Below are positions 6,803 to 27,713 of a DNA stretch of 39,424 nt, piece by piece. The notes beneath the pieces were generated by a model. That model made no database searches, had not been told where the DNA came from, and saw only the letters and a program-made list of their open reading frames with translations. Both the position numbers and the translations under genes were made by a program. The first letter of the stretch is position 1; the number at the start of each line of letters is the position of its first letter. Origin of the DNA: Acidimicrobiales bacterium (lineage in GTDB: Bacteria > Actinomycetota > Acidimicrobiia > Acidimicrobiales > QHCF01); contig QHCF01000150.1 in the NCBI GenBank assembly GCA_003244275.1, forward strand, positions 1 through 39,424. The letters run 5' to 3'.

Positions 6803-7632
6803 CCGGAGCCGGTCATGGGCGCCCGCGCCGGTCTCCCGAGCGGCGCTGCCCGGCTGGTCGGGCCGGTGGTCTGGCGGCCGGTCGGGCCAGAGGCGTGGCG
6901 GCTGGTCGGGCCGGTGGCCTGGTGGGAGCCGCGGCCGGGGTCAGTCTGTTGGGCGCTGCCGTACTCCACGCCGGACCGGCCCTGAGCGCCGTCGGCCCCC
7001 TGCGCCGGCGCCTGCTCCCTGCACTGGCTGGACTGGGCGACGCCGCCCATGTGGCCCTCACGTTTGACGACGGCCCCGATCCTGCCTCCACGCCCATGTT
7101 CCTCGATGCCCTGGCTGACCTCCGCTGGCGAGCCACCTTCTTCATGCTTGGTGACATGGCCCGCCGCTGCCCGTCCCTGGCGGCCGAGGTGGCGGCCGCC
7201 GGTCACGAGGTAGCCCTGCACGGCGACGGCCACAGATCCCACCTGTGGCGCACTCCCCGAAGTGTGGCCGACGACGTCCGCCGGGGACTCGACTCCGTGG
7301 CCCAGGCGACCGGAGCCGTACCGGTGTGGTGGCGGCCCCCCTACGGCGTTATCACCAGCAGTGGCTTGCGGGCCAGCCACCAGGCCGGTCTTCGCCCGGT
7401 GCTGTGGACGACCTGGGGGCGGGACTGGCGGACCGAAGCTACCCCGGACACCGTGATGGCTGACGTGGAGACTGACCTGGTGCCGGGCGCCACCGTGCTG
7501 CTCCACGACTCCGACTGCACGTCGGCCCCGGGGGCATGGCGTGCTGGCCTGCTGGCTCTACCGCGGCTGGCCGAGTCCTTCAGCCGACTGGGTTGCGAGG
7601 TAGGCCCGCTGGCCGAGCACGGGCTCGACTGA
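6799..7632 (+). CDS. NodB-type polysaccharide deacetylase
   Basis: Carbohydrate esterase family 4 enzyme that removes acyl groups from N-acetylated sugars in envelope glycans. Motifs: LTFDDGPDP (metal-binding Asp), HGDGH, the WWRPPYG arginine motif and VLLHDSD near the end. A hydrophobic segment (GVSLLGAAVLHAGPAL) before the domain suggests membrane anchoring. Start is uncertain: TTG 6799 overlaps the preceding stop as TTGA, matching other junctions here, and includes a 24-base triple repeat in frame; GTG 6895 and GTG 6922 are alternatives giving 245 and 236 residues. Probably co-transcribed and co-functional with the glycosyltransferase before it. The catalytic domain is clear; the N-terminus is not. 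Confidence 0.88.
   Translation: MTGAGHGRPRRSPERRCPAGRAGGLAAGRARGVAAGRAGGLVGAAAGVSLLGAAVLHAGPALSAVGPLRRRLLPALAGLGDAAHVALTFDDGPDPASTPMFLDALADLRWRATFFMLGDMARRCPSLAAEVAAAGHEVALHGDGHRSHLWRTPRSVADDVRRGLDSVAQATGAVPVWWRPPYGVITSSGLRASHQAGLRPVLWTTWGRDWRTEATPDTVMADVETDLVPGATVLLHDSDCTSAPGAWRAGLLALPRLAESFSRLGCEVGPLAEHGLD
6852..6923 (+). repeat. 24-bp tandem repeat, three copies
   Basis: Units at 6852-6875, 6876-6899 and 6900-6923 share the core GGYYGGTCGGGCC. In the deacetylase frame they encode an 8-residue repeat of the type GRAGGLAA. The unit is a multiple of three, so copy-number change would keep the frame. Confidence 0.85.
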
Positions 7633-7776
7633 TCACCGGTGCCATGACGCGCTTGCTGGTTGAGCAGCTGACCGTGATCGACCCGCAGGCCCGGCTTGGA
7701 GAGTTCGCCGGCGGTTGGACAGCTCCGAGACCCAAGCCGTAGACACCGCTCTCCAGGTGGTTCTCGCACCTGCGTG

Positions 7777-7846
7777 TGGGCCTTCGAGAAGGCAGCCGCT
7801 CCCCACCACACCGCCCTGTTCTTCGACCCTCATGCGGGCCTTCCTG
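7777..7846 (+). repeat. Dispersed duplicate: 50 bp of ubiA joined to 20 bp of dprE1
   Basis: 7777-7826 equals 9682-9731 with no mismatch; 7827-7846 equals 10176-10195 with no mismatch. The first piece is out of its original frame relative to the remnant that follows; the second keeps its frame (LMRAFL). Both copies are in the same orientation as their sources. Confidence 0.85.
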
Positions 7847-7978
7847 GCCCGGCGGGACGACGGCAACTTGCACTTCACCACCGACTTTCGCTCCGTCTAC
7901 GCAACGGTGTTGGAACGGGTGGTCGGAGTCGATCCCAAGGTGTCGCTGGGCCGCAGCTTCCTACCTGGCCTTCGTGTG
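7832..7978 (+). pseudogene. Remnant of a DUF1501 protein C-terminus
   Basis: The frame starting at 7832 reads FTTDFRSVYATVLERVVG followed by VDPKVSLGRSFLPGL. This resembles the C-terminal end of DUF1501 (sulfatase-like secreted) proteins, which normally exceed 350 residues. Only about 50 residues remain, with no recognisable domain upstream, so this is a gene fragment. The frame runs on without a sensible end into the vapC 3' region. Family recognition is by pattern memory and moderate. Confidence 0.5.
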
Positions 7979-7983
7979 ATTGG

Positions 7984-8421
7984 TCAATCCAGGATCTCAA
8001 GGTCCACCTGCAGTGCCCGGTAGGTGTCGATGGCCCGGCGATCACGAGTCACCAGGCGTATCCCGTATGCAACTGCAGTGGCGCCGACCAGTGCGTCGTA
8101 GACGGCCCCGCCGGCAATGCCCAGGGTCGCCAAACGCCAGAGCAGTTGGCCGGCGGGCGCCTCCCCAAGAAACAGGGTCTCCGAAAAATTGCTGGAGATC
8201 AGCTGGTGAGCGGCGCTAGGGGTGCGCCGCAGCGGTGGGGGCAGTCTGGTCAGAACCGAGAAGGTCTCGAAAGCGGCATGACCAGCCAGGCCTAGGTGAC
8301 GGCCTCGCAGCGAACCCATAGTGACCTGGTGGTGCTCATGGTCGGACACGAGCAGCGCAACAGCGACACTCGTGTCTACCAGCGCGTCGGGCTCCGCCCC
8401 TCCCTCAGCGTTGTGCGGCAT
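7984..8421 (-). CDS. vapC: PIN-domain toxin ribonuclease (VapC family)
   Basis: A 145-residue PIN-domain protein, expected to be an Mg2+-dependent RNase that cuts tRNA or rRNA when freed from its antitoxin. The acidic set is complete: Asp16 in LVDTSVAVALL, Glu52 in AAFETFSVLTR, Asp109 in VYDALVGATA and Asp127 in VTRDRRA. ATG 8421 starts within the last 17 bases of the antitoxin gene, the usual translational coupling of vapBC operons. The pair sits between remnants of other genes, consistent with arrival by transfer. RNA target unknown. Confidence 0.92.
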   Translation of the reverse strand: MPHNAEGGAEPDALVDTSVAVALLVSDHEHHQVTMGSLRGRHLGLAGHAAFETFSVLTRLPPPLRRTPSAAHQLISSNFSETLFLGEAPAGQLLWRLATLGIAGGAVYDALVGATAVAYGIRLVTRDRRAIDTYRALQVDLEILD

Positions 8422-8638
8422 CGCGAAGGACCTGGACGATCTCGTCGTCGATGCGGCCTCCCGCTGGGGGGATGACCAGGCGCCCGTCCTCCTCTGAAAG
8501 CTCGTCCCCGGCAACAGGCTCCACTCGAAGGCCGGCGCCGTCCAGGGTCACCTCAACCTCTCCGGCAGGAATTCCGACTTGGTCCCGCAATGGCTTGGGA
8601 ATCACCAATCGTCCAGCCTTGTCAATGGTTGTGCGCAT
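8405..8638 (-). CDS. vapB: AbrB/SpoVT-type antitoxin (VapB family)
   Basis: A 77-residue antitoxin. The N-terminal half is a swapped-hairpin AbrB DNA-binding domain (MRTTIDKAGRLVIPKPLRD, then LDGAGLRVEPV); the acidic C-terminal half (GDELSEEDGRLVIPPAGG) is where VapC is normally bound. It should repress its own promoter and neutralise the downstream toxin, whose gene it overlaps by 17 bases. ATG 8638 is preceded by TAATAT at 7 bases, so the mRNA is probably leaderless and the AbrB dimer could bind across the start site. Confidence 0.9.
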   Translation of the reverse strand: MRTTIDKAGRLVIPKPLRDQVGIPAGEVEVTLDGAGLRVEPVAGDELSEEDGRLVIPPAGGRIDDEIVQVLRDAAQR

Positions 8639-8645
8639 ACCAGCG

Positions 8646-8651
8646 ATATTA
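8646..8651 (-). promoter_or_regulatory. -10 element (TAATAT) of vapBC
   Basis: On the minus strand TAATAT-N7-ATG. This is the closest match to the TATAAT consensus among the leaderless-type sites in the window. Confidence 0.5.
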
Positions 8652-8659
8652 CCATCAGC

Positions 8660-8809
8660 CAACTTCGACGGCGTGTGGAGGTCGATCGCTACCTTCGTGC
8701 ACCACTTCTGGCACCGGGGTCGGTCTACCTGGGCGAGAACCTTGCCCTGGTGAGTACCCGGTGGGGAGCCAAACTGGTCCTCGACACAAGGTTATCGAGA
8801 GCCGGTGAC
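8660..8809 (+). pseudogene. Possible remnant of an FkbM-type methyltransferase N-terminus
   Basis: The frame at 8660 reads VYLGENLALVSTRWGAKLVLD, resembling the segment that precedes the SAM-binding domain in actinobacterial FkbM-family methyltransferases. The SAM domain is absent; the frame ends without it before the ubiA-type gene. Together with the DUF1501 remnant it suggests older genes were broken where vapBC now sits. Recognition is from pattern memory. Confidence 0.4.
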
Positions 8810-8892
8810 CGGGAGCTGAACGCGGTCAGCTGGGGCGAGTGCCGCGTGGGCGCCCCAAGTAAGCTGGCGATGCCGACGCAGGCGAACACGGC

Positions 8893-8898
8893 GAGAGG
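8893..8898 (+). promoter_or_regulatory. Ribosome binding site deciding the TTG start of ubiA
   Basis: GAGAGG, 6 bases before TTG 8905. No ATG or GTG in this frame lies at a suitable distance. Confidence 0.6.
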
Positions 8899-8904
8899 TG
8901 AGAG

Positions 8905-9894
8905 TTGAGGGAGCAATCCAGCGGCGTCGGGACGCGGGTCGGTGCGCCAGGCAGGGCCGCCGGCGACCTCCGACCGGTCGAGTCCTCCGCTGGCTCTGGA
9001 CGTCGATCCCGGCGCACCGGCATCGTCCTTGGCTTGATCCGCACAGCCCGACCGCGCCAATGGGTGAAGAACGTGCTGGTGCTGGCGGCCCCCGGCGCGG
9101 CTGGGGTTCTCACTCACCTGCATCCCCTGCTGTTGGCGTTGGGAGCCTTCGGCATCTTCTGCCTCACCGCCAGTGGCACCTACCTGGTCAACGACTGCCT
9201 GGACCAGGCGGCGGATGCCCTGCACCCGACCAAGCGTCACCGACCGGTCGCATCGGGGGCGGTCCCAATGCGCCTGGCGGCCGCGGTGGGCGTGGCCATG
9301 ATGGCCCTCGGCATCGGACTGGCGGAGGCTCTGGCTGGCTGGCGTTTGGCCACCGTCATGGGCATCTATGTGGGCATCACCGTCGCCTACAGCCTGTGGC
9401 TCAAGGACGAGCCCGTCATCGACCTGGCCTCGGTGGCCTCCGGCTTCGTGCTACGGGCCATTGCCGGCGGGGTGGCGGTCGGCGTGGTGCTGTCCAACTG
9501 GTTTCTCATCGTGGCGTCCTTTGGGTCGTTGTTCATGGTGGCCGGCAAGCGCCACGCCGAGCACGTCGATCTTGGTCCCAGCCGAGCTGACCACCGGGTC
9601 ACCCTCGGCGCCTATTCCCTGGCTTTCCTGCGTTACATTCGCTCGGTGGCGTCGGCGGTGGCCATCACCGCCTACTGCGTCTGGGCCTTCGAGAAGGCAG
9701 CCGCTCCCCACCACACCGCCCTGTTCTTCGAGCTGTCGATCGTCCCCTTCGTGATTGCCGTCCTGCGCTACGCCCTGCTCCTCGACGCCGGCCAGGGCGG
9801 GGCGCCGGAGGAGATCGTCCTCAAGGAGCGCAGCCTTCAGGTCCTGGGCCTGGCTTGGGCGGTCCTTTTCGCCATGGGTCTTTATGGCGCCTGA
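8905..9894 (+). CDS. ubiA: Decaprenyl-phosphate phosphoribosyltransferase-like UbiA family enzyme
   Basis: A 329-residue polytopic prenyltransferase-fold enzyme; its mycobacterial homologue (Rv3806c) joins phosphoribose from PRPP to decaprenyl phosphate, the first committed step to decaprenyl-phosphoryl-arabinose. About nine spans follow a basic 40-residue N-terminus. The NDxxDxxxD metal motif is at 96-104, followed by HPTKRHRPVASG; the second loop has YSLWLKDEPVIDLASVASGFVLRAIAGG-type sequence with YSLWLKD and RAIAGG. TTG 8905 is the start: GAGAGG at 8893-8898 is a good ribosome site 6 bases upstream. Its end overlaps dprE1 by 11 bases, and dprE2 follows, which strongly supports the assignment. 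Confidence 0.9.
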   Translation: MREQSSGVGTRVGAPGRAAGDLRPVESSAGSGRRSRRTGIVLGLIRTARPRQWVKNVLVLAAPGAAGVLTHLHPLLLALGAFGIFCLTASGTYLVNDCLDQAADALHPTKRHRPVASGAVPMRLAAAVGVAMMALGIGLAEALAGWRLATVMGIYVGITVAYSLWLKDEPVIDLASVASGFVLRAIAGGVAVGVVLSNWFLIVASFGSLFMVAGKRHAEHVDLGPSRADHRVTLGAYSLAFLRYIRSVASAVAITAYCVWAFEKAAAPHHTALFFELSIVPFVIAVLRYALLLDAGQGGAPEEIVLKERSLQVLGLAWAVLFAMGLYGA

Positions 9895-13800: not shown

Positions 13801-16800
13801 TCAGTGGATACTCGCCGTGCGCCTGGCATGATTCGCTCGAGCCGCGGCATAGATTTCACGGTGATCGCCCACCACCCGGCCCCAACGTGAATGGCGAGCG
13901 CTGGCCGCCGCTCGCCCGGCCAGGTCGCCCGCCAGCTCCGGATCAAATAGCACCCGACGAACCGCACCCTCCAGGGCCACCGGATCATCCGGTTCTACGA
14001 GGAACAACGCTTCCCGCGAGTCGGCAAAGATAGCCAGGTCGGTGGCAATGATCGGCCGCTCCAGCGGCAGGACGAAGCGTAGGGCGGCGCTGGACGACTC
14101 GTGAGTCTCCTGATACGGAAGCACGATGACGTCCACCCCCCGCAGCAGGGTGCGCGCCACCTGATCGGGTAGATAATTTGTCTCGAGGATAACGTTGTCC
14201 TCCAGCCCACGCCGCTCGATCTCGCCACGAACGGTGTCCTCATAGTCCGCTGATCGGACATCGGGGTGGCGGGCACACAAAGCAAGCAGGCAGAGCCCTG
14301 AGAACTCGGAGCGAAGCGCGTCCACCACCCCCAACAGCTCGAGCGTGCCCTTGTGGCCGAGGAGGAAGCCGAAGGTACCGATCACCGGTCGGTCTACGAG
14401 TCCCATGGCCTGGCGCGCCTGGGCCGGCGTGACAGGTGGGCAGGGTGCCGTGCCCAGTGGAACGACGCGGACATTGTCGATTATCCCCATTTCAATCAGG
14501 TTCATGGCGTCAGACCGCTGGTGGACGATCAGCTGATCCATTCGCGACAGTGTCGAGCGAATTTCCGACAGGCTTACCAGCTCACCGTCGATCTCTATGT
14601 CCTTGGTCCGGTGCAGTGACATCACCACAGCTCGCCGCGGGAGCTCGTCATTGATCAGCTGCGCGAGGTGTTGCAACTCGAAGAAGCCAAAGTTGAACTG
14701 AAAATGCACCACATCGGCGTCCGACAGCCGGAGCGCATCCCGTAGCTCATCAAGCTCAGGGCTCCACCGATCGGACCAGCACCTAGACACGCCAACCTCC
14801 GAGGCCACATCAAGGATCTCCACCCCATTGTTGGCCAGTACTTCAACATCAAGTGATCCCGAAGCCTGATCCAACAGGTAACGAGTGTTCTCAGCAATGC
14901 CACAACGAGAGTTCCATGTGGAGACCATGGCGACCTTGGGTACCTGGGCCCCGTACTCGAGCTCTTCGAGGAAGTCACGCCACCGCCCGACGGCAGCTTC
15001 CCAAGTAAAGCGCCTTCGTATGAGTTCAGCGGCGCGGTTGACCCGCTCAAGTACCCCCTCGGCGCCTGGGTCATCTACCAGACGCCGCATCTCCAATGCC
15101 AGATGCTCCTGGTCAGGCTCGGCCCATGTCGAACCGGCCAAATCGAAATGACTGGTCGCTTGCTCGAGCCGGTAGGGAATGGTGATGGCCGTCTCATCAG
15201 AGACAAAATCGGCCAGACCGGAATACTCGATACTGATAACCGGTATCTGCGCCGCCATGGCCTCCGCCACCGGGAGCCCGAAGCCCTCGCCCCGGGCGGG
15301 ATGGACATAGCAGCTGGCCAGGTTGTAAAGACCTTGGATGTCAGAGTCGTCCAAATCTCGGTCGATCCACCGCACATCAGGAGCATGAGGATGGCTGGCC
15401 CTGAGATGGCTCAGCAGCGTCGCCACCTCGTTGTGCGGATTGGGGAAGGTCTTGAGGATCAGAGAGACGTCGCTCGATCCATCGAACCCGGCGAAGTATG
15501 CCTTCAGGAGGACGTCAAGGCCCTTGCGGGGAAAGGCCGAGCCGATGTTCAAGAACCGGAAGGCCCGAAGGCCCTCCAGCTCCGCCAGGTTCACTCTTGC
15601 CCCCGGATCAGGTGGCATCACACCGTTTGCCACCACTCGGACGGGGATGTCGACTCCCGACTCACGCAGCACGTCTCGCACAAAGTGCGACATGACTCCG
15701 ACTCCATCGAGGTAGCGATTGAAGTCGTGTACCAGCTCGGGGGGAACCCGACTCTCCTCCCAACCGAAGTATTCGCAGGTAATGGCCCCCGGAGAATCGA
15801 TCACCCGGGGAGGATGCATCTGGCGGATCACCACGTGCGGATACGGCACCCCCTGAGAACGGCCGTAAAGTGCGGTGGCGGCGGGAATACTGGTCAGATC
15901 TTCGGTCCGGGGTGCATAGTCGCCTGGCCCCTCGGTGGCATATATCGACACGGCGTAGCCGGGATCCGCGGAGAGGCCCTCCGCCAGCTTGCGATTCGTC
16001 ATGGCCAGGCTGTAGCTGGTCTCGAATGGGCCCTGGACTTGGACCTCCAAGGGGCACGCCTGTCCCGACGCTCGAGCGATGATGTGGGCCAGCAGGCCTC
16101 GAGTGTCAAACGCCTGTACCTGGCGAACCCTTTGGAGTTGGCGGCAGGTCAACCGCTCGCGCAATGGTTGATCCTGCCGGATGGCCTCGACCGCGCAGGC
16201 CACTACTGCAGGCTCCTTGCTCCGCAGCAGAACACCGGCACCTCCCATCGTCTCGGGGATGGCAGCCGCGGCAAAGGCCAGCACCGGCACACCCGCTGCC
16301 ATCGCTTCGAGGATCGGAACGCCGAACCCCTCATGCTCGCTCAGCGAGACAAAGACCCCGGCTCCGGCAAACGCCGACTTGAGCTGCTGAGCCGAGAGCT
16401 TCCCGAGCAGCAGCACCCTGTCCGCTAGATCAAGCCGCGCTGCCTCCCTGCGAACCAGCCCGGTGTAGTCGTTGTCAGAGATATCGCCTACCAGTAGGAG
16501 GCGGGCATCCCCATCGAATTCCCTGCAGTAGATGGCGAAGGCCCGCACCAGGTCGTGCTGGCACTTGTTGGCGACCACCCGTCCAACGAAGAGCCAGTCA
16601 CTCGACCTCCAAACGCCGGAGGCTGCAGCGGAGGCGAACTCGGAGAAGTCCGTCCGCACCGGCAACACCTCAGGTCGCCGGAACCCGACGGCCAGCATCT
16701 CGCGTCGGTTGAAGTTGGAGACTGCCACACCAAGGCGAGCCCGCCGGGCCAGGATGGCCAACTGTTCCCGACCAAGTCGGAGCCAGCCCCGAACGATTTC

Positions 16801-17112
16801 GTCTTCGAAGTATTGCTCAGGTGTGATGTTATGGTATATGGCCACGATGTCGTTGGGTAAGTCAATCACTCGGTCAAATGCGGCATTGCCCATGGAGTGA
16901 TGGACCAGAAGCAGGTGATGCTCCGATCCCTGGTATCCGTGAATCGGGTGGATGCTCCGGACCAACTCCGGGGCAACATGCTCAGCAAAGACCTCAGAAA
17001 CCATTCCCATGGCGCGCAGGTGCTCTTGGAGACGCAGCATCTGCTGAGTGATGGCGTCACCCATGGCGGTCCCAGAGTGAACCTGGTGGACGGCTCCATA
17101 GTGGCGGTTCAC
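13801..17112 (-). CDS. Triple-domain GT4 glycosyltransferase (1103 residues)
   Basis: Three GT-B glycosyltransferase units in one cytoplasmic protein. Unit 1 (1-350) has YHNITP (93-98), FVGRVVANK and the EX7E acid pair Glu261/Glu269. Unit 2 (355-715) has NIGSAFPRKGLD and EX7E Glu609/Glu617. Unit 3 (724-1095) has TFGFLLGHKG but no EX7E pair (LPYQETHESSSAALRF), so it may be inactive or structural. GT4 enzymes are retaining transferases using NDP-sugars. Multi-unit proteins of this kind build the repeats of ABC-exported O-polysaccharides (WbdA type), which fits the Wzm/Wzt genes of the same operon. It is the last gene of the operon and overlaps the preceding methyltransferase by four bases. Confidence 0.9.
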   Translation of the reverse strand: MNRHYGAVHQVHSGTAMGDAITQQMLRLQEHLRAMGMVSEVFAEHVAPELVRSIHPIHGYQGSEHHLLLVHHSMGNAAFDRVIDLPNDIVAIYHNITPEQYFEDEIVRGWLRLGREQLAILARRARLGVAVSNFNRREMLAVGFRRPEVLPVRTDFSEFASAAASGVWRSSDWLFVGRVVANKCQHDLVRAFAIYCREFDGDARLLLVGDISDNDYTGLVRREAARLDLADRVLLLGKLSAQQLKSAFAGAGVFVSLSEHEGFGVPILEAMAAGVPVLAFAAAAIPETMGGAGVLLRSKEPAVVACAVEAIRQDQPLRERLTCRQLQRVRQVQAFDTRGLLAHIIARASGQACPLEVQVQGPFETSYSLAMTNRKLAEGLSADPGYAVSIYATEGPGDYAPRTEDLTSIPAATALYGRSQGVPYPHVVIRQMHPPRVIDSPGAITCEYFGWEESRVPPELVHDFNRYLDGVGVMSHFVRDVLRESGVDIPVRVVANGVMPPDPGARVNLAELEGLRAFRFLNIGSAFPRKGLDVLLKAYFAGFDGSSDVSLILKTFPNPHNEVATLLSHLRASHPHAPDVRWIDRDLDDSDIQGLYNLASCYVHPARGEGFGLPVAEAMAAQIPVISIEYSGLADFVSDETAITIPYRLEQATSHFDLAGSTWAEPDQEHLALEMRRLVDDPGAEGVLERVNRAAELIRRRFTWEAAVGRWRDFLEELEYGAQVPKVAMVSTWNSRCGIAENTRYLLDQASGSLDVEVLANNGVEILDVASEVGVSRCWSDRWSPELDELRDALRLSDADVVHFQFNFGFFELQHLAQLINDELPRRAVVMSLHRTKDIEIDGELVSLSEIRSTLSRMDQLIVHQRSDAMNLIEMGIIDNVRVVPLGTAPCPPVTPAQARQAMGLVDRPVIGTFGFLLGHKGTLELLGVVDALRSEFSGLCLLALCARHPDVRSADYEDTVRGEIERRGLEDNVILETNYLPDQVARTLLRGVDVIVLPYQETHESSSAALRFVLPLERPIIATDLAIFADSREALFLVEPDDPVALEGAVRRVLFDPELAGDLAGRAAASARHSRWGRVVGDHREIYAAARANHARRTASIH

Positions 17113-18359
17113 CTGGTAGCTGCGATCGCGTAGTCCTGGTAGCCGAAGACGCTCCGGACCAGCGCCTCGACCACCTCGCCAACCTTGTTCGCCGGGAGCT
17201 CTCCCACGGCCTCGAGCATTGGGTGAGGAGATCGCTCCTCAAGCTGGACCAAGGAGAATCCCACTTGTTCACAGATGAAACGCAAGGTCTCAGGATGGAC
17301 AGGCCTCACGTGGGAGGTATCCGCGAAGAAGTGATCACCCAAAGCAAACGAGCTACGGGGATTGATCGTCTCCATCACCAAGACGCCTTCCGGTCGGAGC
17401 TTGTCGCATGCGAGGCGGACAAATTGCTCCAGTTCGGAGGTGAGCAGGTGTTCCACCACCTGAGCACAGAAGATCCCCTTCAAAGAGCCGTCATCCATCT
17501 GCCCAAGGGTGTGTATGGCATCCCCTCGAACCACGGGGAGTCCCTTGTCGATGCAAACTCTGACCATGCCATCGTCAAGGTCGACACCCAGCACGTCGTG
17601 GCCTGCCTCTCGCAACAGCTCGAGCATCTCGCCGCGCCCACAGCCGACGTCCAGGATGGCCCCAGCAACGCCCGCCGGTGGGAACAGGGTCAGATAGCGG
17701 GCCTGAGCCTGGCGAAGTTGGTCCGTCGAACCTCGGAATCGATCTTCGAAGGCCACATAGTCGATATCGGCTCCGGCAACGGAGGCGGCGCCCAATCGAT
17801 CTAGCACGGCCGACACATCCCGGCGCAGAGACTGCACCTCGCCCATGGTGGCTGAGCTGGCCGCGAGCTGTTCGAGACGTCTGCGTAGCTCGCCCGCACG
17901 CTCCAGCGAGGACACCAACGCCAGCCGGGCGGCGACGTTCAGCCTGCGAATCGCCGCAAGCTCGAGATCCAGGCGTCGCCGGTCGGCGTGTAGGCTGCTC
18001 AGCTCCTGATCGACCTCGCACAACAGATCCATCACATTGGCGTCATAGTCCCGCTGAAGCTCGAAGCGCGGCTCGACATACCAGAGAATCAACTTGCGAA
18101 TCAGCCGCTTGACGAGCCACGCCGCTTGACGGCCGAGTCCCGCCCCCCTGGTTAGCAGTGGTGGCTGCATCCGGGCTCGCAGCTCGGCCAGCGTGCTCAG
18201 GCGGCCCTGCCTGGCCTGGGTACTCGTCTCCGGACCTGGAGACGATCGGACTGATCCCCTGTCACCCGGGTCCCGGGTGAGCCGAATCGACCCCAACAGC
18301 TGTTCGACCCGCGCGACCAGGTCTGCGGCAGAGATCACCTGTCCGTCCACGTCGAGCAT
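17109..18359 (-). CDS. SAM-dependent methyltransferase with N-terminal membrane-proximal helix and coiled coil
   Basis: A 416-residue protein. Residues 80-125 contain RKLILWY (88-94), an amphipathic block; 115-190 are predicted coiled coil; 200-416 are a class I methyltransferase with motif I LDVGCGRGE (236-244) and CAQVVEHL. It resembles the methyltransferase part of WbdD, which ends O-polysaccharide chains by methylating the terminal sugar, and it directly precedes the chain-building triple glycosyltransferase. I infer chain capping or sugar O-methylation. There is no WbdD-like kinase domain. The coiled coil could serve as a length ruler or scaffold, but that is speculative. Confidence 0.82.
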   Translation of the reverse strand: MLDVDGQVISAADLVARVEQLLGSIRLTRDPGDRGSVRSSPGPETSTQARQGRLSTLAELRARMQPPLLTRGAGLGRQAAWLVKRLIRKLILWYVEPRFELQRDYDANVMDLLCEVDQELSSLHADRRRLDLELAAIRRLNVAARLALVSSLERAGELRRRLEQLAASSATMGEVQSLRRDVSAVLDRLGAASVAGADIDYVAFEDRFRGSTDQLRQAQARYLTLFPPAGVAGAILDVGCGRGEMLELLREAGHDVLGVDLDDGMVRVCIDKGLPVVRGDAIHTLGQMDDGSLKGIFCAQVVEHLLTSELEQFVRLACDKLRPEGVLVMETINPRSSFALGDHFFADTSHVRPVHPETLRFICEQVGFSLVQLEERSPHPMLEAVGELPANKVGEVVEALVRSVFGYQDYAIAATR

Positions 18360-19706: not shown

Positions 19707-20879
19707 CTAACTCGCCACCGCTTCGAGAAATCGACCGTAGCGCTCGATGATCTTAGGCCATCGGTAGTGGGCGTCGACGTAGTGTCTGCCGTGCTCGCCC
19801 AAGACCCGGCGCAGCGCGGCATCGGCCAGGAGCCGATCCACCGCGGCCTCAAAGCTGGCATAGCCGTCGAACCAGAGGCCACCGCCTGATGCCCGGCAAT
19901 GCTCAACCGTGGGTGGGCAGGCCGCGTTGACCAGGACCGGCCTATTTTCGCACCAAGCCTCCATGATCACAACTGAGAAGGACTCGTTGGCCGAAGGCGA
20001 GACAACGGCGGTCGATTGGCTGAGGATTGACCACTTGGTCGCCTCGTCCACCGGGCCGATGAGGAACACATCAGGGTGCGGGGGCGGTCGGGTGGCAATG
20101 GGACCGACCATTACCAGCGCCAGAGCACCGGGGCGACGTTGCTTGTAGACGGCGAAGAATTCGACCAGCAGGCGAGAGCCCTTGAGGTCGTCGACCCGGC
20201 CCAGGCAACACAGATAAGGTCGATCACCCACACCGTCGAAGTCAGCGGACGTATCGCAAGCCACGGGTCTCTCGTCCACCCCCAGACCGATGATGGCTTG
20301 GCGCCGTTCGGCCACCGAGAACCAGTGCTGGACCAGATGACGCTCGCTCGTGGTGTGATAGGCGAAGCCGGCAGCGGCAGCGAAGGTCGAACGGAAGATC
20401 GGCAACAACAGGGCGGGCTCGTCATGGGCTGCCGGATGCAGGACGGCCCGTTCGGAGACCAACCCTATGGCCCGCACGGTGGGGTAGTACAGGTAAGGGT
20501 AGAACACCACCAGGTCGGCATCGCTGGCCACCACGGCGTCCACCAGCTCGGGGCACACCGGGCCCTGGAGATCGACCCAGTGCTCGGCGTCTGCCTCCGA
20601 GGCCACTCTGGGCGCGGCTAAGACGCGATCCGAGAACGAGAAGAAGCCGGGATGTCGGCCCGCCACCGAGCGGTACCGATGCACCACCACGCCGTGATCC
20701 ACCGATTCGCCCGGATCGTCCTCGTCCTGCCACGTCAACAGGTCTCGGGCGCATGTAGTGAAAACCTCGGCGGTCCAACCCAGTTGGGAAACCAACCTCT
20801 CGGCGAGCATCCGAGCGCCCCCCTCCGCCCCGCCAATGACGTGAGGGCCGTAACGGGGCACCACGTAGGCAACCTTCAT
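19707..20879 (-). CDS. GT4 glycosyltransferase
   Basis: A 390-residue retaining glycosyltransferase. The N-terminal acceptor domain begins VAYVVPRYGPHVIGGAEGGAR, the GT4 glycine-rich loop; the donor domain has CLGRVDDLKGSRLL and the EX7E pair Glu299/Glu307 in ANESFSVVIMEAW. It differs from the two glycosyltransferases upstream, which lack the GGAE loop. Acts in the cytoplasm on lipid-linked chains; the sugar is unknown. ATG start overlaps the stop of the preceding gene by four bases, showing translational coupling. Confidence 0.9.
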   Translation of the reverse strand: MKVAYVVPRYGPHVIGGAEGGARMLAERLVSQLGWTAEVFTTCARDLLTWQDEDDPGESVDHGVVVHRYRSVAGRHPGFFSFSDRVLAAPRVASEADAEHWVDLQGPVCPELVDAVVASDADLVVFYPYLYYPTVRAIGLVSERAVLHPAAHDEPALLLPIFRSTFAAAAGFAYHTTSERHLVQHWFSVAERRQAIIGLGVDERPVACDTSADFDGVGDRPYLCCLGRVDDLKGSRLLVEFFAVYKQRRPGALALVMVGPIATRPPPHPDVFLIGPVDEATKWSILSQSTAVVSPSANESFSVVIMEAWCENRPVLVNAACPPTVEHCRASGGGLWFDGYASFEAAVDRLLADAALRRVLGEHGRHYVDAHYRWPKIIERYGRFLEAVAS

Positions 20880-22039
20880 CTGGGTCCCGCCCCGACACCG
20901 CTGGCGGCCGGTTGATCAGCCGAGCCGGGTGCGTCCGCCGTGCCAGAGCCACCGTCGCCCGGGAGGAATCGACCGAGTGCTTCGACCAGACGACCGCGAG
21001 TGCGCTCCGGGGAGAAGTCCGCCAGACGCCTGCGCCCGGCAGCCACCAGGCCGGACCGCAGCCGGGCGTCATGAATCACTCGGTCGATGGCTGCCGCCAC
21101 GACCAGCGGTGCTTTGCTGGCGAGCACGATGCCGCCCGGTCCCAGGGTCTCTGGAACCGCCGCCGCCCCGTAAGCCACCACCGGGACCCCCTGGTGCATG
21201 GCCTCCAACAACGGCACGCAGAACCCCTCGTGCTCCGAGCAGCTCACCAGCACATCGGCCGCCCGATAGTAGGCAGCCAGCTCTGCCTGGCTCACCCCCT
21301 CGGCCAGGTCCACCGAGTCGGAGAGTCCGAGGTCGCTGACGTAGCGGCGCAGGGCAGCAAGGTATACGGGCGACTGGGGTCGGCCGACCAGGTGCAGGCG
21401 GGCCGCCGAATCGTAGAGGCGTCGGTAGGCCAGCAGCGCCTTGACCAGGTCGTGTTGGGCCTTGTTGGGAGAGATCCGACCCACGAACAACAGATCCGCT
21501 CCCCCATCCGCCTTGGCCGCGGCCAGGCGGTCCAGAGCCTTCTCGTCCACCTTTGCGTCGAAGGCATCCAGGTCGATCAGTATGGGCACGACCACCGTGT
21601 CCTCATATCCCAGCTCCACCAGCTCGGCTTGGTTGAAGGCCGAGTCAGCCAGGGCCAGGACTGCCCGGTCTGCCAGTCGAGCGACCTGAGCCCTGCCCCA
21701 GACCTGGTACAGAGCCGCCCTCGGATCCCAACCCCGAAAGAACTGAGCCGGGGTGAGATTGTGATAGTCGATTACCAGCGGCTCGGGCCGGGTGTAGAGG
21801 AAGTCAGCCAGATGCGAAGCGACCGCCAAATGGTAAAGGAGGACATCGCCGTCGGCCCTGGTCTTTGGATAGTCGCTGAAATGACGGGCCTCCCGGGGGG
21901 CGAGTCCTAAGTCGATGGTTTCGACGTAGATGTCCGACTCAAGGCCAAAGCTTCTGACCAACTGGCGAATCTCAAGGACATGACCGCCCGTAGCATCCCC
22001 TTCCAGCAAGGCAGGCACGAACTGGTGAATGCCGCCCAT
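20876..22039 (-). CDS. GT4 glycosyltransferase, tandem paralogue A
   Basis: A 387-residue GT4 enzyme with DYHNLTPAQFF (91-101), FVGRISPNKAQHDLVK and EX7E Glu271/Glu279 (EGFCVPLLE). It matches the next gene upstream closely over its length, and unit 1 of the triple glycosyltransferase more distantly, so these arose by duplication. The shared HNxTP segment lies in the acceptor domain. Sugar unknown. The start codon is three bases after the stop of its paralogue. The C-terminal tail (GGSGTADAPGSADQPAASG) is low-complexity and probably disordered. Confidence 0.9.
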   Translation of the reverse strand: MGGIHQFVPALLEGDATGGHVLEIRQLVRSFGLESDIYVETIDLGLAPREARHFSDYPKTRADGDVLLYHLAVASHLADFLYTRPEPLVIDYHNLTPAQFFRGWDPRAALYQVWGRAQVARLADRAVLALADSAFNQAELVELGYEDTVVVPILIDLDAFDAKVDEKALDRLAAAKADGGADLLFVGRISPNKAQHDLVKALLAYRRLYDSAARLHLVGRPQSPVYLAALRRYVSDLGLSDSVDLAEGVSQAELAAYYRAADVLVSCSEHEGFCVPLLEAMHQGVPVVAYGAAAVPETLGPGGIVLASKAPLVVAAAIDRVIHDARLRSGLVAAGRRRLADFSPERTRGRLVEALGRFLPGDGGSGTADAPGSADQPAASGVGAGPR

Positions 22040-22042
22040 GGC

Positions 22043-23239
22043 TCAGACTCGGCCCGAGGTATGACGGACAACCCGGTGGCCCAGCCTGGGCTGGCCTACC
22101 GGGCTCTGGCCTACCGGAGGTTGGCCGGCGGGGCGACTGATGGCAGTCGTCACCGCCGCCGCAAACTGGGCTTTGGTGCGCTCCAGGCGGAAATCGGACA
22201 AGTGGGCCTGCCCGGTGACAATCAGGGCCTGCCGCAGGCCAGGGTCGCTCAACACCCGATGAACCGCCGCCGCCATCCGAGCTGGCTCCTTGGTTTCGAT
22301 CACCAAGCCCCCTCCACCCACGGTCTCGGGGACCGCGGCCGCTCCATAGGCCACAATGGGCAGACGGTGGTACATGGCCTCGAGTAAGGGAATGCAGAAC
22401 CCCTCATGGTCCGAACAGCAGACGAAGGCATCAGCCGCCTGGTAATAAGCAGCCAACTGACCCGGCGTTACCGATCCGGCCAGGTGGACGGCTCCTTCCA
22501 GGCCCAGGGAGTGGGCGAAGCTGAGCAGGGCCTCCCGATACGAGTCGGAAAACGATGCCCCCACCAGATGGAGCTGGGCGAGCGGGTCATATACCCGCCG
22601 GTAGGCAAACAGCATCTTGACCAGGTCGTGCTGGGCCTTGTTGGGAGAGATACGGCCAACGAAGAGCAGGGACCTGCCACCGCCAACCTTGGCATCCTCG
22701 AGGCGACGAAGAGTGGCCGCGTCGGCAGGCTGATCAAAAGCCTGCAGGTCGATGAGCGGGGGGGCCACGGCGACAGATCGGTAGCCGGCCAACACCAGCT
22801 CCATTCGATTGAAGCTGGACACGGCAATGGCGGCCGACACTCCGGGAGCCAGTAGCTCGAGCTGGCGCCTACCGTTGGTCACGGCCTCTCCGACATAGGG
22901 GTCCCACCCCTCAAGCAGGTGGGCAGGTGTGATGTTGTGATAATTGAGGATCTTGGGCTCTCGGCGCTCGGCCAGGAAACCGGCTATCGGACTGCCGATG
23001 GAGCTCTGATAGAGCAACCAGGTATCGGCACGGTAAGCCTGGCGCCGATAGCGGGCATAGGGCTGGGCCCGCCCGTCCAGCTCCAGCTTGATCTCGTCGG
23101 CAAAGATCTCAGACTCGAAACCCATCTCTCTCAGCAGCGTTTGGACGGCAAGGGTATGGGAGCCGATGGCGTCACGCGCAGCCAGCGAGGGAACGAACTG
23201 ATGGATGGCGCGAACGAGGCCTTGTCTTGCGTCGCTCAC
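22043..23239 (-). CDS. GT4 glycosyltransferase, tandem paralogue B
   Basis: A 398-residue GT4 enzyme with NYHNITPAHLLEGWDP (99-114), FVGRISPNKAQHDLVK (193-208) and EX7E Glu279/Glu287 (EGFCIPLLE). Paralogue of the following gene: the N-terminal AIHQFVPSLAARDAIG matches GIHQFVPALLEGDATG there. The tail contains imperfect 5-residue repeats (GQPPV, GQSPV, GQPRL) coded by a 15-base DNA repeat. Start at 23239 overlaps the stop of the methyltransferase-like gene by four bases. Donor and acceptor sugars are unknown. Confidence 0.9.
   Translation of the reverse strand: MSDARQGLVRAIHQFVPSLAARDAIGSHTLAVQTLLREMGFESEIFADEIKLELDGRAQPYARYRRQAYRADTWLLYQSSIGSPIAGFLAERREPKILNYHNITPAHLLEGWDPYVGEAVTNGRRQLELLAPGVSAAIAVSSFNRMELVLAGYRSVAVAPPLIDLQAFDQPADAATLRRLEDAKVGGGRSLLFVGRISPNKAQHDLVKMLFAYRRVYDPLAQLHLVGASFSDSYREALLSFAHSLGLEGAVHLAGSVTPGQLAAYYQAADAFVCCSDHEGFCIPLLEAMYHRLPIVAYGAAAVPETVGGGGLVIETKEPARMAAAVHRVLSDPGLRQALIVTGQAHLSDFRLERTKAQFAAAVTTAISRPAGQPPVGQSPVGQPRLGHRVVRHTSGRV
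22088..22132 (-). repeat. 15-bp tandem repeat, three copies, last degenerate
   Basis: Units 22088-22102, 22103-22117 and 22118-22132 share the core CTGGCCTACCGG on the plus strand. They encode the GQxPV-type repeats at the C-terminus of the glycosyltransferase. Confidence 0.7.
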
Positions 23240-24465
23240 GGACGGCGACGGACACCGACGACCGCAAAGCTGGCTGGGCCGAACAACACTCTGTCGATAA
23301 GGCCCAGATTGGCGTTGAGGACGCCAATCTCAGGTTCGGCGCCCTGGACGATGCCCAATCTTGGCTCTTCCGCGCCACGGTGAGCCTCGATATCATCAAA
23401 GCCTCGGCGCTCGAGCAGGTGACACCACGTCTCTGGATGCAGGGGTCGGCCCGGGGCCAGATCAACCTCTACTACCGCAGTCGAGTGGGCCCACGCATTG
23501 GGCATGATACCAATTATCACCACTAACCCCCCCGGAGCTAAGCGGTCGAAGGCCAGGTCGGCCAGGGCCCGCTGCTCGCGCACGGATAGGTAGTCGACAC
23601 AACCGGAGAGCACCAGGCCGGCCAGCGATCCAACGGCCACCGCTCTCAGATGCTCCAGGACGTCCTCCCGGCGGACGTCCAGCCCAAGGGCCGAGGGCAG
23701 GTCCAGCAACGCAGCTCTGGGATCCACTCCGTACGCATCGATGCCGTCGGCCGCCAGTGCCGCAACCAGGCCGCCGCTGGCACACTCGGCGTGCAGCACC
23801 CGCCCCCGGCTGGGCCCCAGCACCGTGCGAATCAGACTGGCCCACTCCCCCACCTCAGCCCCTGGATCGGGCGGCGACCATCCCGCCTGGGCGGGCAGTG
23901 GCTCCACTGCTGTGAAGAGCTCCTCGGGGGTCAGCCGATCATCCTCCCGGAGTGGATGAGGGCGACGGGCCCGGGCCTCCTCCTCCAGCTCGCCCAGCCG
24001 GTCGTCGAACATGTGCAGGACGCGCATGGTGGCCGAGCTGAATCGCACCAGCTGCTGGACGACGTAGTTCAAGTACCAGGCCATCAGCTTGCGCAGGGTG
24101 CGCTTCAACAAGGCGACTCCTGCGATGTTGGAACGCAGTGGCACGTCGATGTCCACATAGGCGGCGCGGTCGGCCAGGTTGAGGGCCTCCTCGAAGTAGC
24201 CCTCCTTGGTCCCTACCGGGGCGAAACGGGAGAACAGGAGATCGAGACGGCGCTCGAAGCTGGGCGGAAATTCGCCCGCCGCCCGCCGCCGCCGCACCTC
24301 CTGGTCGATCTCGGACATGATCCCGACCAAGAACCCAGGACTACTCGACTCCGGTAAGCCGCCCTGGGTCGGTCCCGACGTGGACGGAGAGCCAGTCGTA
24401 GCACCCCGGGGTACCCCCGGCGGGTCCCGAGGACCCGCGGTGCCCCCCGGCTCAGTGGTTGTCAA
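23236..24465 (-). CDS. Methyltransferase-like protein with degenerate SAM motif
   Basis: A 409-residue protein. Residues 1-48 are Pro/Gly/Ser/Thr-rich and probably disordered; 110-165 hold RKLMAWY (125-131) and a coiled coil, closely matching the N-terminal block of the 17109-18359 methyltransferase; 215-405 have a Rossmann methyltransferase outline. Motif I reads LHAECASGG (224-232) instead of DxGxGxG, followed by YGVDPR, so SAM binding may be altered or lost. The order within the domain (LSGCVDYL, APGGLVVIIG) is normal. TTG 24465 overlaps the wzt stop as TTGA. Role in the glycan operon is inferred only; it may be a scaffold. Confidence 0.75.
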   Translation of the reverse strand: MTTTEPGGTAGPRDPPGVPRGATTGSPSTSGPTQGGLPESSSPGFLVGIMSEIDQEVRRRRAAGEFPPSFERRLDLLFSRFAPVGTKEGYFEEALNLADRAAYVDIDVPLRSNIAGVALLKRTLRKLMAWYLNYVVQQLVRFSSATMRVLHMFDDRLGELEEEARARRPHPLREDDRLTPEELFTAVEPLPAQAGWSPPDPGAEVGEWASLIRTVLGPSRGRVLHAECASGGLVAALAADGIDAYGVDPRAALLDLPSALGLDVRREDVLEHLRAVAVGSLAGLVLSGCVDYLSVREQRALADLAFDRLAPGGLVVIIGIMPNAWAHSTAVVEVDLAPGRPLHPETWCHLLERRGFDDIEAHRGAEEPRLGIVQGAEPEIGVLNANLGLIDRVLFGPASFAVVGVRRRP

Positions 24466-25766
24466 CCCGCCACCCGCTCGTCACCCGACCGCCGGCTGAC
24501 GTCTATCCGCAGTGGTAAGGCCACCAGCCCAACGGTACGAGCCGGGTTCATCACCTCAAAACGATCCTGGTTTTCCCGCCAGTCATAGACAGGTCCGTCG
24601 GCATGACGATGGACACCGATGATGAGATCATATGTACCGTCCAGCAGGGGAATACTATCGAAGCAGAACGCCACCTCTCCTTTCCCGTCGATAACGCCCA
24701 GCGGCTTCTCTATCGTCTCGGTATTGGCACCAAAGACCAGGTCACCCTTGACATCGTGAACAGCGATCCCGAATACCACGTCATCAACCGCCTCGGTCGC
24801 CTCATAGCTAACCCGTACGGTCAGGGGCTCATTGGGCAACAGGTATGGGCGGGTTCCGGCCTCGGGATGCTCAATGCTCACCTCCGTGATGCTCACCAGT
24901 CGTTGGGGCGGCGCCGGGGCCGCATCGGGCAACGAAACCAACCCGGCAACATCGCTACCTTGCGTACCAAACTCGCCGGCGGCTGACCGGGGGACGGCGT
25001 CCGACGACGTCTCGTCATCGGGAACCTCCTCCCCCATCGCCTGCAGGTGCTCGCGGTAGGCCCGAATGGCCTCCCCCGGGGGCCCCTCAGCCACCAGATG
25101 ACCATGGTGCAACACGTACACTCGCTTGCAGATCTGTCGCACCAGATCCGGTGAATGGGAGACAAAGACGATGGTGCGACCCTCATCCTGGAACAACCTC
25201 ACCCGGTCGATGCACTTGCGCTGGAAGTTCTCGTCTCCCACGGCCAGCACCTCATCGACCAACAAGATGTCGGGCTCCATGTTCACTGCCACCGCGAAGC
25301 CCAGGCGGGTGTACATACCTGACGAGTAATATTTGACCTGATTGTCGATAAAGTGCTCGAGTTCGGCGAAAGCAACTATGGCGTCGAACCGCTTGTCGAT
25401 CTCCCGGCGGGCCATGCCCAGCAGTGAGGCATTGAGGTATATGTTGTCCCTGCCGCTGAGCTCGGGGTGGAAACCGGATCCCAGCTCAAGCATGGCTGCC
25501 AACTGTCCTCGCACCACAATGCGACCACTGGTCGGCTGGAGGATGGCGGCGACGCAGTTGAGCAGGGTGGACTTGCCGGAGCCATTGTGTCCCAGGAGAC
25601 CGACGGTCTCGCCCTCCCCAACCACCATCGAGATGTCACGCAGGGCCCAGAACTCCTCGTAGGGAGTGTGCCCGAAATGGATGGCGCGTTCCTTGAGTGA
25701 CGTGTACTTCTCGTGGTAAAGACGAAAACGCTTGGACACCTCCTCCACCTCGATGACCGGCGCCAA
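24462..25766 (-). CDS. wzt: Polysaccharide ABC exporter ATPase with carbohydrate-binding C-domain
   Basis: A 434-residue ATPase powering export of an undecaprenyl-linked polysaccharide through Wzm. Walker A GHNGSGKS (59-66), signature YSSGM (147-151), Walker B ILLVDE (167-172) and switch His in FVSHSPD. After a linker (about 242-285), residues 288-425 are a beta-sandwich like the Wzt C-domain of E. coli O9a, which recognises the modified chain end. With three methyltransferase-type genes in the operon, this fits a cap-and-export scheme. TTG 25766 chosen: GAGGAG (25778-25783) lies 11 bases upstream and VIEVEEVSKRF is the expected N-terminus. It begins five bases after the wzm stop. Confidence 0.93.
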   Translation of the reverse strand: MAPVIEVEEVSKRFRLYHEKYTSLKERAIHFGHTPYEEFWALRDISMVVGEGETVGLLGHNGSGKSTLLNCVAAILQPTSGRIVVRGQLAAMLELGSGFHPELSGRDNIYLNASLLGMARREIDKRFDAIVAFAELEHFIDNQVKYYSSGMYTRLGFAVAVNMEPDILLVDEVLAVGDENFQRKCIDRVRLFQDEGRTIVFVSHSPDLVRQICKRVYVLHHGHLVAEGPPGEAIRAYREHLQAMGEEVPDDETSSDAVPRSAAGEFGTQGSDVAGLVSLPDAAPAPPQRLVSITEVSIEHPEAGTRPYLLPNEPLTVRVSYEATEAVDDVVFGIAVHDVKGDLVFGANTETIEKPLGVIDGKGEVAFCFDSIPLLDGTYDLIIGVHRHADGPVYDWRENQDRFEVMNPARTVGLVALPLRIDVSRRSGDERVAG

Positions 25767-25771
25767 CTGAC

Positions 25772-26864: not shown

Positions 26865-27479
26865 TCAGGTGTCGATGCTGGCCGCCGCCGAGCGGTCGAT
26901 GACCCGGTCGATGAAGCCGTATTCGCAGGCCTCCTCGGCGGTGAACCATCGGTCGCGGTCCGAGTCAGTCTCGATTCGCTCGACCGGTTGGCCGGTGTGG
27001 AAGGAGATCCGCTCGGCCATCATCCGCTTGAGGTACACGATCTGCTCCGCCTGGATGGCGATGTCTGACGCCATACCCTGCATCTGGCCCGATGGCTGGT
27101 GCATCAAGATGCGCGAGTGGGGCAGGGCATAGCGCTTGCCGGGGGCGCCGGCGCACAGGAGAAACTGGCCCATGGATGCGGCCAGGCCGACGCAGATGGT
27201 CCCCACGTCGCAGGTCACGTACTGCATGGTGTCGTAGATGGCCAGCCCGTCGGTCACCGAGCCACCCGGCGAGTTGATGTAGAGGGCGATGTCCCGTTCC
27301 CGGTCCTCGGCGTCGAGCAGCAGCAGCTGGGCGCAGATGAGGTTGGCCGATGTCTCGTCCACCTGCGTGCCGAGGAAGACGATGCGCTCTTTGAGCAGGC
27401 GCTGAAAGATGTCCTGGGTGCGGTCGGAGCCGCCAGACTGGTTCTGTCCGGAGATGTTGAGGGCTGGAGGGCTTTCCAT
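26865..27479 (-). CDS. clpP: ATP-dependent Clp protease proteolytic subunit
   Basis: A 204-residue serine peptidase that forms the ClpP barrel and degrades proteins fed by Clp ATPases. Triad: Ser102 ([11 protein letters not shown]), His127 (LMHQPSG) and Asp172 ([11 protein letters not shown]). YINSPGGSV and MQGMASDI are conserved family segments. ATG 27479 with TAGCCT 7 bases before it suggests a leaderless mRNA. Actinobacteria usually have two clpP genes beside clpX; here this copy stands alone beside tRNA-Leu and the glycan genes, so a second copy probably lies elsewhere. Confidence 0.95.
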
Positions 27480-27486
27480 ATGGGGA

Positions 27487-27492
27487 AGGCTA
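27487..27492 (-). promoter_or_regulatory. Candidate -10 element (TAGCCT) of clpP
   Basis: On the minus strand TAGCCT-N7-ATG, the same hexamer and spacing as before murI and the gene at 39332. The expected transcription start falls on the start codon. Confidence 0.4.
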
Positions 27493-27532
27493 GCGGTCGT
27501 TGACTGCCCGATAGTCTGAGCCGACACCCGTC

Positions 27533-27614: not shown

Positions 27615-27713
27615 CAGGCCCTCTGACCTGCCAGTGGGCCCCGACGACCAGCGGCGCCAGAGGCGGCGGGAGGTCAGGTGGGCAGCCCGCGTCAACCATT
27701 GCGAGACGACAGG

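Follow-up and report, generated by a model that had tools for sequence, protein, structure and literature searches.

The repeat of the Escherichia coli O8 polysaccharide contains β-1,2-linked mannose (Man), and the activities of the domains of the WbdA polymerases were reportedly mapped in 2012. The Klebsiella pneumoniae O5 polysaccharide is equated with that of E. coli O8, and the enzymes of the O3 and O5 systems are described as having two or three GDP-mannose-dependent glycosyltransferase (GT) modules, one for each type of linkage (PMC11231755). In the O3 enzyme, WbdA-N is assigned the 1–2 linkage and WbdA-C the 1–3 linkage (PMC5529442), and O5 is presented as a tri-mannose chain with anomeric configurations and linkages that differ from those of O3b (PMC11048683). 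The subject of this work is a gene for a large glycosyltransferase from an Acidimicrobiales bacterium of the phylum Actinomycetota (assembly GCA_003244275.1), the genome of which is a draft of 2.27 Mb in 247 contigs, 88% complete. The stretch of DNA analysed, hereafter the window, comprises the 39,424 nucleotides of contig QHCF01000150.1.

An initial annotation of the window, made from its sequence, had placed a triple glycosyltransferase at positions 13801–17112, and a single open reading frame (ORF) lies at exactly this place, on the minus strand. The predicted product is composed of three units, the last of which departs from the EX7E glutamate pair of canonical GT4 enzymes. The comparisons described below support its reading as a new WbdA(O8)-type trimodular polymerase, the type being taken in the broad sense of a core formed by units 2 and 3, encoded in a polysaccharide locus of the ATP-binding cassette (ABC) transporter kind.

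A Three-Unit Protein Related to WbdA(O8)

Each third of the protein has a match to Pfam Glyco_trans_1_4 above the cut-off, barely so in unit 3 (28.9 bits versus 27), and profiles place the units at residues 7–351, 353–721 and 721–1098, which upholds the division into three glycosyltransferase units made in the initial annotation. A search of NCBIfam with the protein returned sub-cut-off matches only, among the best 25 of 31.

The likeness to WbdA, at first drawn as an analogy, proves to extend further. By blastp, the window protein is 30% identical over 925 columns (E 8e-121) to the polymerase of the E. coli O8 locus, and units 2 and 3 stand in tandem in both. This E. coli protein of 1213 residues is annotated only as 'glycosyltransferase' and is taken here as WbdA(O8) because of its locus, its length and its three modules. 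Its third module has ESASGAVRY at position 1116, a motif of the same class as that of unit 3. The two proteins share three GT-B modules, with homologous units 2 and 3 in the same order, and a locus with wzm, wzt, a methyltransferase and further glycosyltransferases.

The comparison was extended to 18 proteins with a unit 3, comprising that of the window, those of three relatives (L009, L010 and L012) and those of 14 plasmid-borne loci, together from four phyla, with one broken copy (L011) omitted. These proteins were retrieved by searching with the entire protein and serve as examples, not as a census. For the architecture profiles and the count of unit-2 glutamates, the chromosomal O8 copy (L099) replaces a plasmid copy (L054). 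Nineteen proteins were profiled, the nineteenth being WbdA(O9), and units 2 and 3 occur in tandem in 18 of the 18 that have a unit 3. The first module is of the unit-1 type in nine of these, of the O8/O9 N-terminal type (O8N) in three (E. coli O8, Shinella and Paraburkholderia), absent from three rhizobial proteins of 761–773 residues, and matched by none of the models in the remaining three. Since units 2 and 3 are always paired while the type of the first module varies, units 2 and 3 appear to form the core of the enzyme, with module 1 exchanged.

The window protein was rejected as an orthologue of WbdA(O8) proper. Its unit 1 falls in a profile and a clade of its own, apart from the first module of WbdA(O8), which is of the O8N (α-1,2) type, groups with the N-terminal module of WbdA(O9) and is 37.5% identical to it. 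Its nearest named relative is not enterobacterial but comes from an Acidimicrobiales metagenome-assembled genome (MAG; L009, 65% identity). Membership of the WbdA(O9a) group was also rejected, from the module profiles. WbdA(O9/O9a) is likewise a multi-module GT4 polymerase of the ABC-transporter pathway, but it is bimodular, both of its modules have EX7E and the first is of the O8N type, whereas the window protein has unit 3. The WbdA(O9) used here, from another E. coli genome, has its two EX7E motifs at 317 and 750 and gives no match to unit 3; with its second module, the O8N profile gives 33 bits and that of unit 2 gives 29 bits, both of them weak.

Active-Site Motifs of the Three Units

Both glutamates of EX7E are present in units 1 and 2, with Glu261 and Glu609 numbered as in the initial annotation. 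For unit 3, in which LPYQETHESSSAALRF begins at residue 998, the same annotation had described the pair as lost. This is correct for the second glutamate, which is replaced by F1013, and mistaken for the first, which is kept as E1005. When an alignment of ten unit-3 rows is compared with unit 1 by hhalign (probability 95), E1005 falls on E261 and F1013 on E269. In the full-length AlphaFold2 (AF2) model, a strand, the glutamate and a helix follow one another in the same register in each unit: 253–256, E261 and 264–272 in unit 1; 601–604, E609 and 612–620 in unit 2; and 995–998, E1005 and 1008–1017 in unit 3. Loss of the whole pair was rejected on these two grounds, the profile alignment and the register of the model. 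The quality of the full-length model counts against this assignment, with a predicted local distance difference test (pLDDT) score of 69.9, a predicted template modelling (pTM) score of 0.47 and a pLDDT below 50 in the loop 1005–1007. The profiles of units 3 and 2 aligned over nothing but an overlapping tail of 25 columns, so that this comparison carries no information.

The second glutamate is missing from unit 3 in all 18 proteins, residue 1013 being variable (F, Y, W, M, T, I or V) and never glutamate, and the motif E/D-S/T/A-x-S/T-G/A-A/S-x-R occupies the matching place in every case (18/18). In unit 2 of the same proteins, both glutamates are kept in 17 of 18. Taken together, these counts argue against chance as the source of the change in unit 3. 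When a narrow EX7E pattern was used, unit 2 went undetected in four proteins; the profile column shows both glutamates in three of them and neither in the fourth. The latter, an FkbM-fused relative from Azospirillum thermophilum (L065), has P and Q in place of the two unit-2 glutamates and keeps the unit-3 signature.

It had been suggested in the initial annotation that unit 3 might use a different acid. In GnaT, loss of the first glutamate (E283) is reported to abolish nearly all activity and loss of the second (E291) only part of it (PMC12856342), and in a model of GumH, Glu279 lies near C1 and Glu287 contacts the ribose (PMC13104830). A different acid is not needed in unit 3, because the first glutamate, the more important one in the GnaT test, is still present as E1005. 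In comparison with a canonical GT4 enzyme, unit 3 has the GT-B fold and lacks the complete EX7E pair, with E1005 and F1013 at the two positions.

Conservation, Fold and Likely Activity of Unit 3

Residues C737, G738, A740, Q805, H834, H864, D868, K921, Y1000 and R1012 are identical in all 18 units. Position 739 is Ile in 17 of them (C737-G-I/L-A), position 1005 is Glu in 17 and Asp in one, and position 1008 is Ser in 15 and Thr in three. The AF2 model of residues 720–1103 has a pLDDT of 83.2 and a pTM of 0.81, and it matches GT-B enzymes over their full length. The best match is 7qsg (Z 32.8, root-mean-square deviation (rmsd) 2.7 over 339 positions), followed by 6kih (Z 32.1), PimA with GDP-Man (2gej; Z 31.9, rmsd 2.8 over 339 positions), MshA (3c4q; Z 31.6) and PimB' (3oka; Z 30.1). 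The leading scores in this list amount to a tie. PimA, PimB' and the MMP mannosyltransferase 7qsg have the fold in common with unit 3 (Z 30–33), but they are less than 22% identical to it and are single-domain enzymes with the canonical EX7E. In a sequence search of the PDB with unit 3, phmmer found one weak chain and the profile reached a best E of 2e-6.

Judged from its sequence and predicted fold, unit 3 is most likely a conserved catalytic transferase module rather than a relic. The initial annotation had offered, as its other option, that unit 3 serves as a chain-binding module. A catalytically dead GT-B module with a binding role, for the donor or for the chain as it grows, would agree with the loss of the second glutamate in 18 of 18 units and with the evolution of unit 3, the fastest of the three. 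Its identity to L009 is 59%, versus 67–68% for the other units, and its identity to L010 is 31.5%, versus 41–48%. In addition, its ratio of non-synonymous to synonymous substitution rates (dN/dS) is the highest, at 0.18 versus 0.13–0.14 in units 1 and 2 (window compared with L009, with a dS of 1.75–1.95, near saturation). These figures weigh against an active unit 3. However, a dN/dS of 0.18 is itself a point against a dead module, as is the attribution of one GT module to each linkage in the O8/O5 enzyme (PMC11231755). The donor-site lysine K921 and the other polar residues listed above, from Q805 to R1012, do not vary among the 18 units, and E1005 gives way once, to Asp. This conservation disfavours the chain-binding proposal, and a degenerate binding module was rejected because of it. 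We therefore regard a dead module as very improbable.

The Sister Clade, GH130 and the Linkage Made by Unit 3

In a tree of 69 rows, the 18 unit-3 rows form one clade, with a support of 99 by the Shimodaira–Hasegawa-like approximate likelihood ratio test (SH-aLRT), apart from the EX7E modules. This clade is sister (94) to a clade of stand-alone glycosyltransferases in which a Q-x-x-S-G motif replaces EX7E (99). The tree comes from a quick search with SH-aLRT as the only support, was rooted at its midpoint and gave warnings about long branches; it includes only nine unit-2 and six unit-1 rows, and 8 of the 20 Q-x-x-S-G regions in the first set are omitted from it. The sister enzymes are 'CGIA' glycosyltransferases of Actinomycetota, some of them fused to GH130. 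They resemble unit 3 in the CGIA start where it is aligned (14/29) and in His834, Lys921, Tyr1000 and Ser1008, kept in 28–29 of 29. They differ from it in having Gln for E1005 (29/29), Ala or Ser for R1012, either Gln or Glu at 805 and a single GT domain, often with GH130 alongside. Unit 3 was rejected as a member of this GH130-linked clade, as it has Glu and not Gln and is placed as its sister in the tree. The initial annotation had named alignment of unit 3 with a conserved, active GT4 family using another motif as the observation that would count against its proposal. This is largely what was found, since both the third module of WbdA(O8) and the stand-alone Q-x-x-S-G enzymes can be aligned with unit 3, the activity of the latter being predicted.

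GH130 is described as a family that phosphorolyses β-mannosides with inversion (PMC4264767). A GH130 is fused to the glycosyltransferase or encoded within about 7 kb in 13 of 27 Q-x-x-S-G regions, versus 0 of 13 regions of other glycosyltransferases (Fisher p 0.003), with 12 of the 13 assignments confirmed by Pfam and that of L103 made by phmmer only. Unit 3 becomes a candidate for the β-linkage, the rarer type of sugar bond, through these neighbours of its sister clade, combined with elimination in WbdA(O8): module 1 is related to the O9 α-1,2 module and module 2 has EX7E, the retaining type, so that module 3 is left for the β-bond. Formation of a β-linkage by unit 3 is, on this sequence-based argument, an evenly balanced prospect. 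A wider proposal is that unit 3 and the third module of WbdA(O8) constitute a distinct inverting class in the GT4 fold group, with one glutamate and the signature E-S-x-S-x-A-x-R, which would make β-Man or β-D-rhamnose (D-Rha) linkages from α-GDP-sugars, and that the GH130-linked sister enzymes are likewise β-mannosyltransferases. We put this forward tentatively, as a possibility on the doubtful side.

Several observations weigh against a β-forming unit 3. The enzymes of GT4 are all described as retaining (PMC11231755), the closest solved folds of unit 3 include retaining α-transferases, and UDP-sugar and GDP-Man enzymes have tied fold scores, which indicate neither donor nor stereochemistry. 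Module 2 of WbdA(O8) is not matched to the O9 1–3 module by a clear score, and the elimination is not closed at that point. The GH130 groups were set after the motifs had been seen, with 7 of the 20 intended control regions moved to the Q-x-x-S-G group, and the p-value is made optimistic by close relatives (L101/L104 and L110/L113) and by cuts at contig ends. Furthermore, L140, which has Lys for Gln and was counted among the 13 non-motif regions, falls in the clade of the GH130 set in the tree. A GT4 enzyme encoded beside two GH130 genes is predicted in one report to be an α-mannosyltransferase (PMC4264767), and GH130 in the sister clade may merely supply mannose 1-phosphate for GDP-Man. Finally, no GH130 was found in the source genome, at its 88% completeness, and a GH130 link in that genome was rejected on this basis.

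Unit 3 could instead be an active retaining (α) sub-class of GT4 that works with the first glutamate alone, in which case the polymer would be all α or would obtain its β-bond from another enzyme. This has to be reconciled with the O8 structure, for which one module of WbdA(O8) should form the β-1,2 bond, and with the retaining motif of modules 1 and 2. It accords with the first glutamate and the donor lysine kept in unit 3, with the retaining enzymes among the closest solved folds, with the PY..SG motif found in many stand-alone glycosyltransferases, and with the partial importance of the second glutamate reported for GnaT (PMC12856342). A retaining unit 3 is accordingly a serious contender, with chances somewhat short of even.

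As a separate observation, a second class of stand-alone glycosyltransferases (PY-D/G-S-x-x-Q-x-T-S-G-V-L) has a GH130 gene at a distance of about 1 kb or less in 7 of the 7 regions examined (L122, L123, L126, L127, L128, L129 and L137), a candidate β-mannoside gene pair.

Distribution of the Trimodular Gene

Among 396 sampled genomes of the phylum, a near full-strength match to unit 3 (E 6e-182) occurs only in the source genome, and the next match (5e-38) is a stand-alone glycosyltransferase; the scan scored at most a few candidates per genome. In 58 other genomes of the same order, no match spanning units 1 to 3 was present among the matches listed. Full-length relatives with 39–40% identity come from Roseburia, Eubacterium plexicaudatum (the broken copy) and another MAG, of Clostridiales. 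Upstream of these relatives lie Wzm- and Wzt-like ORFs, recognized by Pfam in L012 and by eye in L010 and L011. The broken homologue of E. plexicaudatum (L011, about 6000–9106) has its frame broken within unit 1 and stops prematurely in unit 3, and transposase-like ORFs, identified by eye, lie downstream of it.

By tblastn, 98 plasmid records matched the protein, and in eight of them a single place accounts for 80% of the query or more. The best 30 of the 98 were listed and 14 were fetched, chosen for wide cover or a different host. Some of the plasmid matches sit in E. coli O8-type loci annotated with wbdC and with wzm and wzt of the 'O8 family'. One of these records, L054 (NZ_CP026400.1), carries an O8-type O-antigen locus next to IS110-family elements on an IncX5 conjugative plasmid, and its wbdB–wbdC stretch is matched in 846 of 5426 E. 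coli genomes, with a coverage of at least 80% in 661 of these. In plasmids of Pseudomonas, Roseomonas and Methylosinus (L055, L056, L057 and L066), the triple-GT genes lie near type I secretion genes. DUF4214 proteins are encoded near the triple-GT genes in L055, L056 and L066, and glycosylation of, or assistance to, a secreted protein may be involved there.

Phage records gave 120 matches, none with more than 80% of the query in one place. Streptomyces phages account for 116 of these records. The best 20 rows include 18 from Streptomyces phages, and in each of these unit 2 lies within the match. A scan of viral contigs with the unit-3 alignment found no relative. Horizontal spread of the trimodular gene is likely.

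Genomic Locus and Proposed Pathway

Genes for Wzm, Wzt (with Wzt_C) and methyltransferases belong to the same strand block as the trimodular gene (Table 1). The methyltransferase gene that adjoins the trimodular gene, identified from its Pfam domains, is a candidate for a WbdD-like methyl terminator. In L009, the relative likewise has a methyltransferase gene overlapping its start. The window locus shares these parts and the GT4 genes with the O8 system, which suggests a repeat-building polymerase with a capped and exported product.

According to the proposed mechanism, each of the three modules in the chain would add one linkage of the repeat to a lipid-linked glycan. Units 1 and 2 would act as ordinary retaining GT4 modules with EX7E, and unit 3 as an active module of a different class, which would use E1005, the donor-site K921 and its own conserved residues and has lost the second, ribose-contacting glutamate. 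The glycan would then be capped by the neighbouring methyltransferase, and the capped product exported by the adjacent Wzm/Wzt ABC transporter. Homology, architecture, conservation, fold and locus enter this proposal as computed results; catalysis by unit 3, the donors and the β-linkage are what we infer. We consider a WbdA(O8)-type polymerase with three GT-B transferase modules, an active unit 3 and a capped, exported product to be probable.

The donor is probably a GDP-sugar, GDP-D-Man and/or GDP-D-Rha. The source genome has gmd above the cut-off, and the gene is also found near the relatives in L012 and L055; for this reason, D-rhamnose is possible as well as mannose. The GMP_PMI match in the source genome is weak.

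The three transferases might alternatively build a fixed oligosaccharide, such as an adaptor or a side chain, and not an exported repeat. The three rhizobial relatives with units 2 and 3 only would fit this, and one of the rhizobial loci (L067), for which the annotation is incomplete, has no transporter gene annotated within 5 kb. In the Pseudomonas, Roseomonas and Methylosinus relatives, the nearby type I secretion genes make glycosylation of a secreted protein possible. For the window gene, the strand block shared with wzm, wzt and the methyltransferases, the parts of an O8 locus, speaks against a fixed oligosaccharide, which we regard as unlikely.

Table 1. Features of the trimodular glycosyltransferase gene and of the neighbouring genes in the window.
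Feature	Coordinates	Strand	Details and basis
Trimodular glycosyltransferase	13801..17112	minus	GTG start, 1103 aa; ORF, translation, Pfam GT4-type domains, full-length relatives
Unit 1, aa 1–352, canonical EX7E GT4 module, exchangeable first module	16057..17112	minus	Pfam, profile architecture
Unit 2, aa 353–722, canonical EX7E, start QxQGPFETSYSLA..TEGPGDY	14947..16056	minus	Pfam, relatives, architecture
Unit 3, aa 723–1103, non-EX7E GT-B module, WbdA(O8) C-terminal type	13804..14946	minus	AF2, fold matches, tree
EX7E of unit 1, E261–E269	16306..16332	minus	EHEGFGVPILEAM
EX7E of unit 2, E609–E617	15262..15288	minus	RGEGFGLPVAEAM
Unit 3 signature, E1005-SSSAALR-F1013	14074..14100	minus	Phe in place of the second Glu; first Glu present
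Methyltransferase, 416 aa, domain preceded by an N-terminal extension, candidate chain terminator	17109..18359	minus	Pfam Methyltransf_23/_11 at 216–373
Second methyltransferase, 429 aa	18379..19668	minus	Pfam Methyltransf_11
GT4-type glycosyltransferase, 390 aa	19707..20879	minus	Pfam Glycos_transf_1
Unit-1-like GT4, 387 aa	20876..22039	minus	Pfam; 38% to unit 1
Unit-1-like GT4, 398 aa	22043..23239	minus	Pfam; 37% to unit 1
Possible methyltransferase, 409 aa	23236..24465	minus	Methyltransf_23, 23.8 bits, below cut-off 27
wzt-like ABC ATPase with Wzt_C	24462..25763	minus	ABC_tran, Wzt_C; start approximate, by eye
wzm-like ABC permease, 331 aa	25772..26767	minus	ABC2_membrane, 63.7 bits

A longer ORF that includes wzt (24462–26525, minus) was considered as a fused Wzm–Wzt protein and rejected, as its first approximately 255 codons are wzm DNA in another frame. 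The GC content at its third codon positions is 60%, versus 71–86% in the other listed genes, and it has no segment of a transmembrane type.

Unit 1 is 37–38% identical to the glycosyltransferases at 20969–22039 and 22199–23209 of the same window, and it may derive from, or be the source of, these neighbouring stand-alone enzymes (20876–23239, minus). Elsewhere in the window, an ORF at 26865–27947 (minus) encodes 360 residues with a ClpP domain only at residues 174–352, and its long N-terminal part without a family match may reflect a wrong start. The ORF at 154–2082 (plus) joins a MobA-like NTP transferase domain to an FdhD/NarQ domain.

Implications for O8-Type Polymerases

What appeared to be a broken motif becomes a class with a searchable signature. 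Four phyla at least have the O8-type polymerase core of units 2 and 3, joined to a swapped first module, and unit 3 is a candidate module for the β-bond of O8-type glycans. If unit 3 is inverting, it would be an exception, with a recognizable sequence, to the rule that the GT4 fold group retains, and retaining and inverting GT-B modules would stand next to each other in one polypeptide. If it is retaining, it would represent an ordinary sequence variant, and the calling of 'dead' modules from EX7E would need care.

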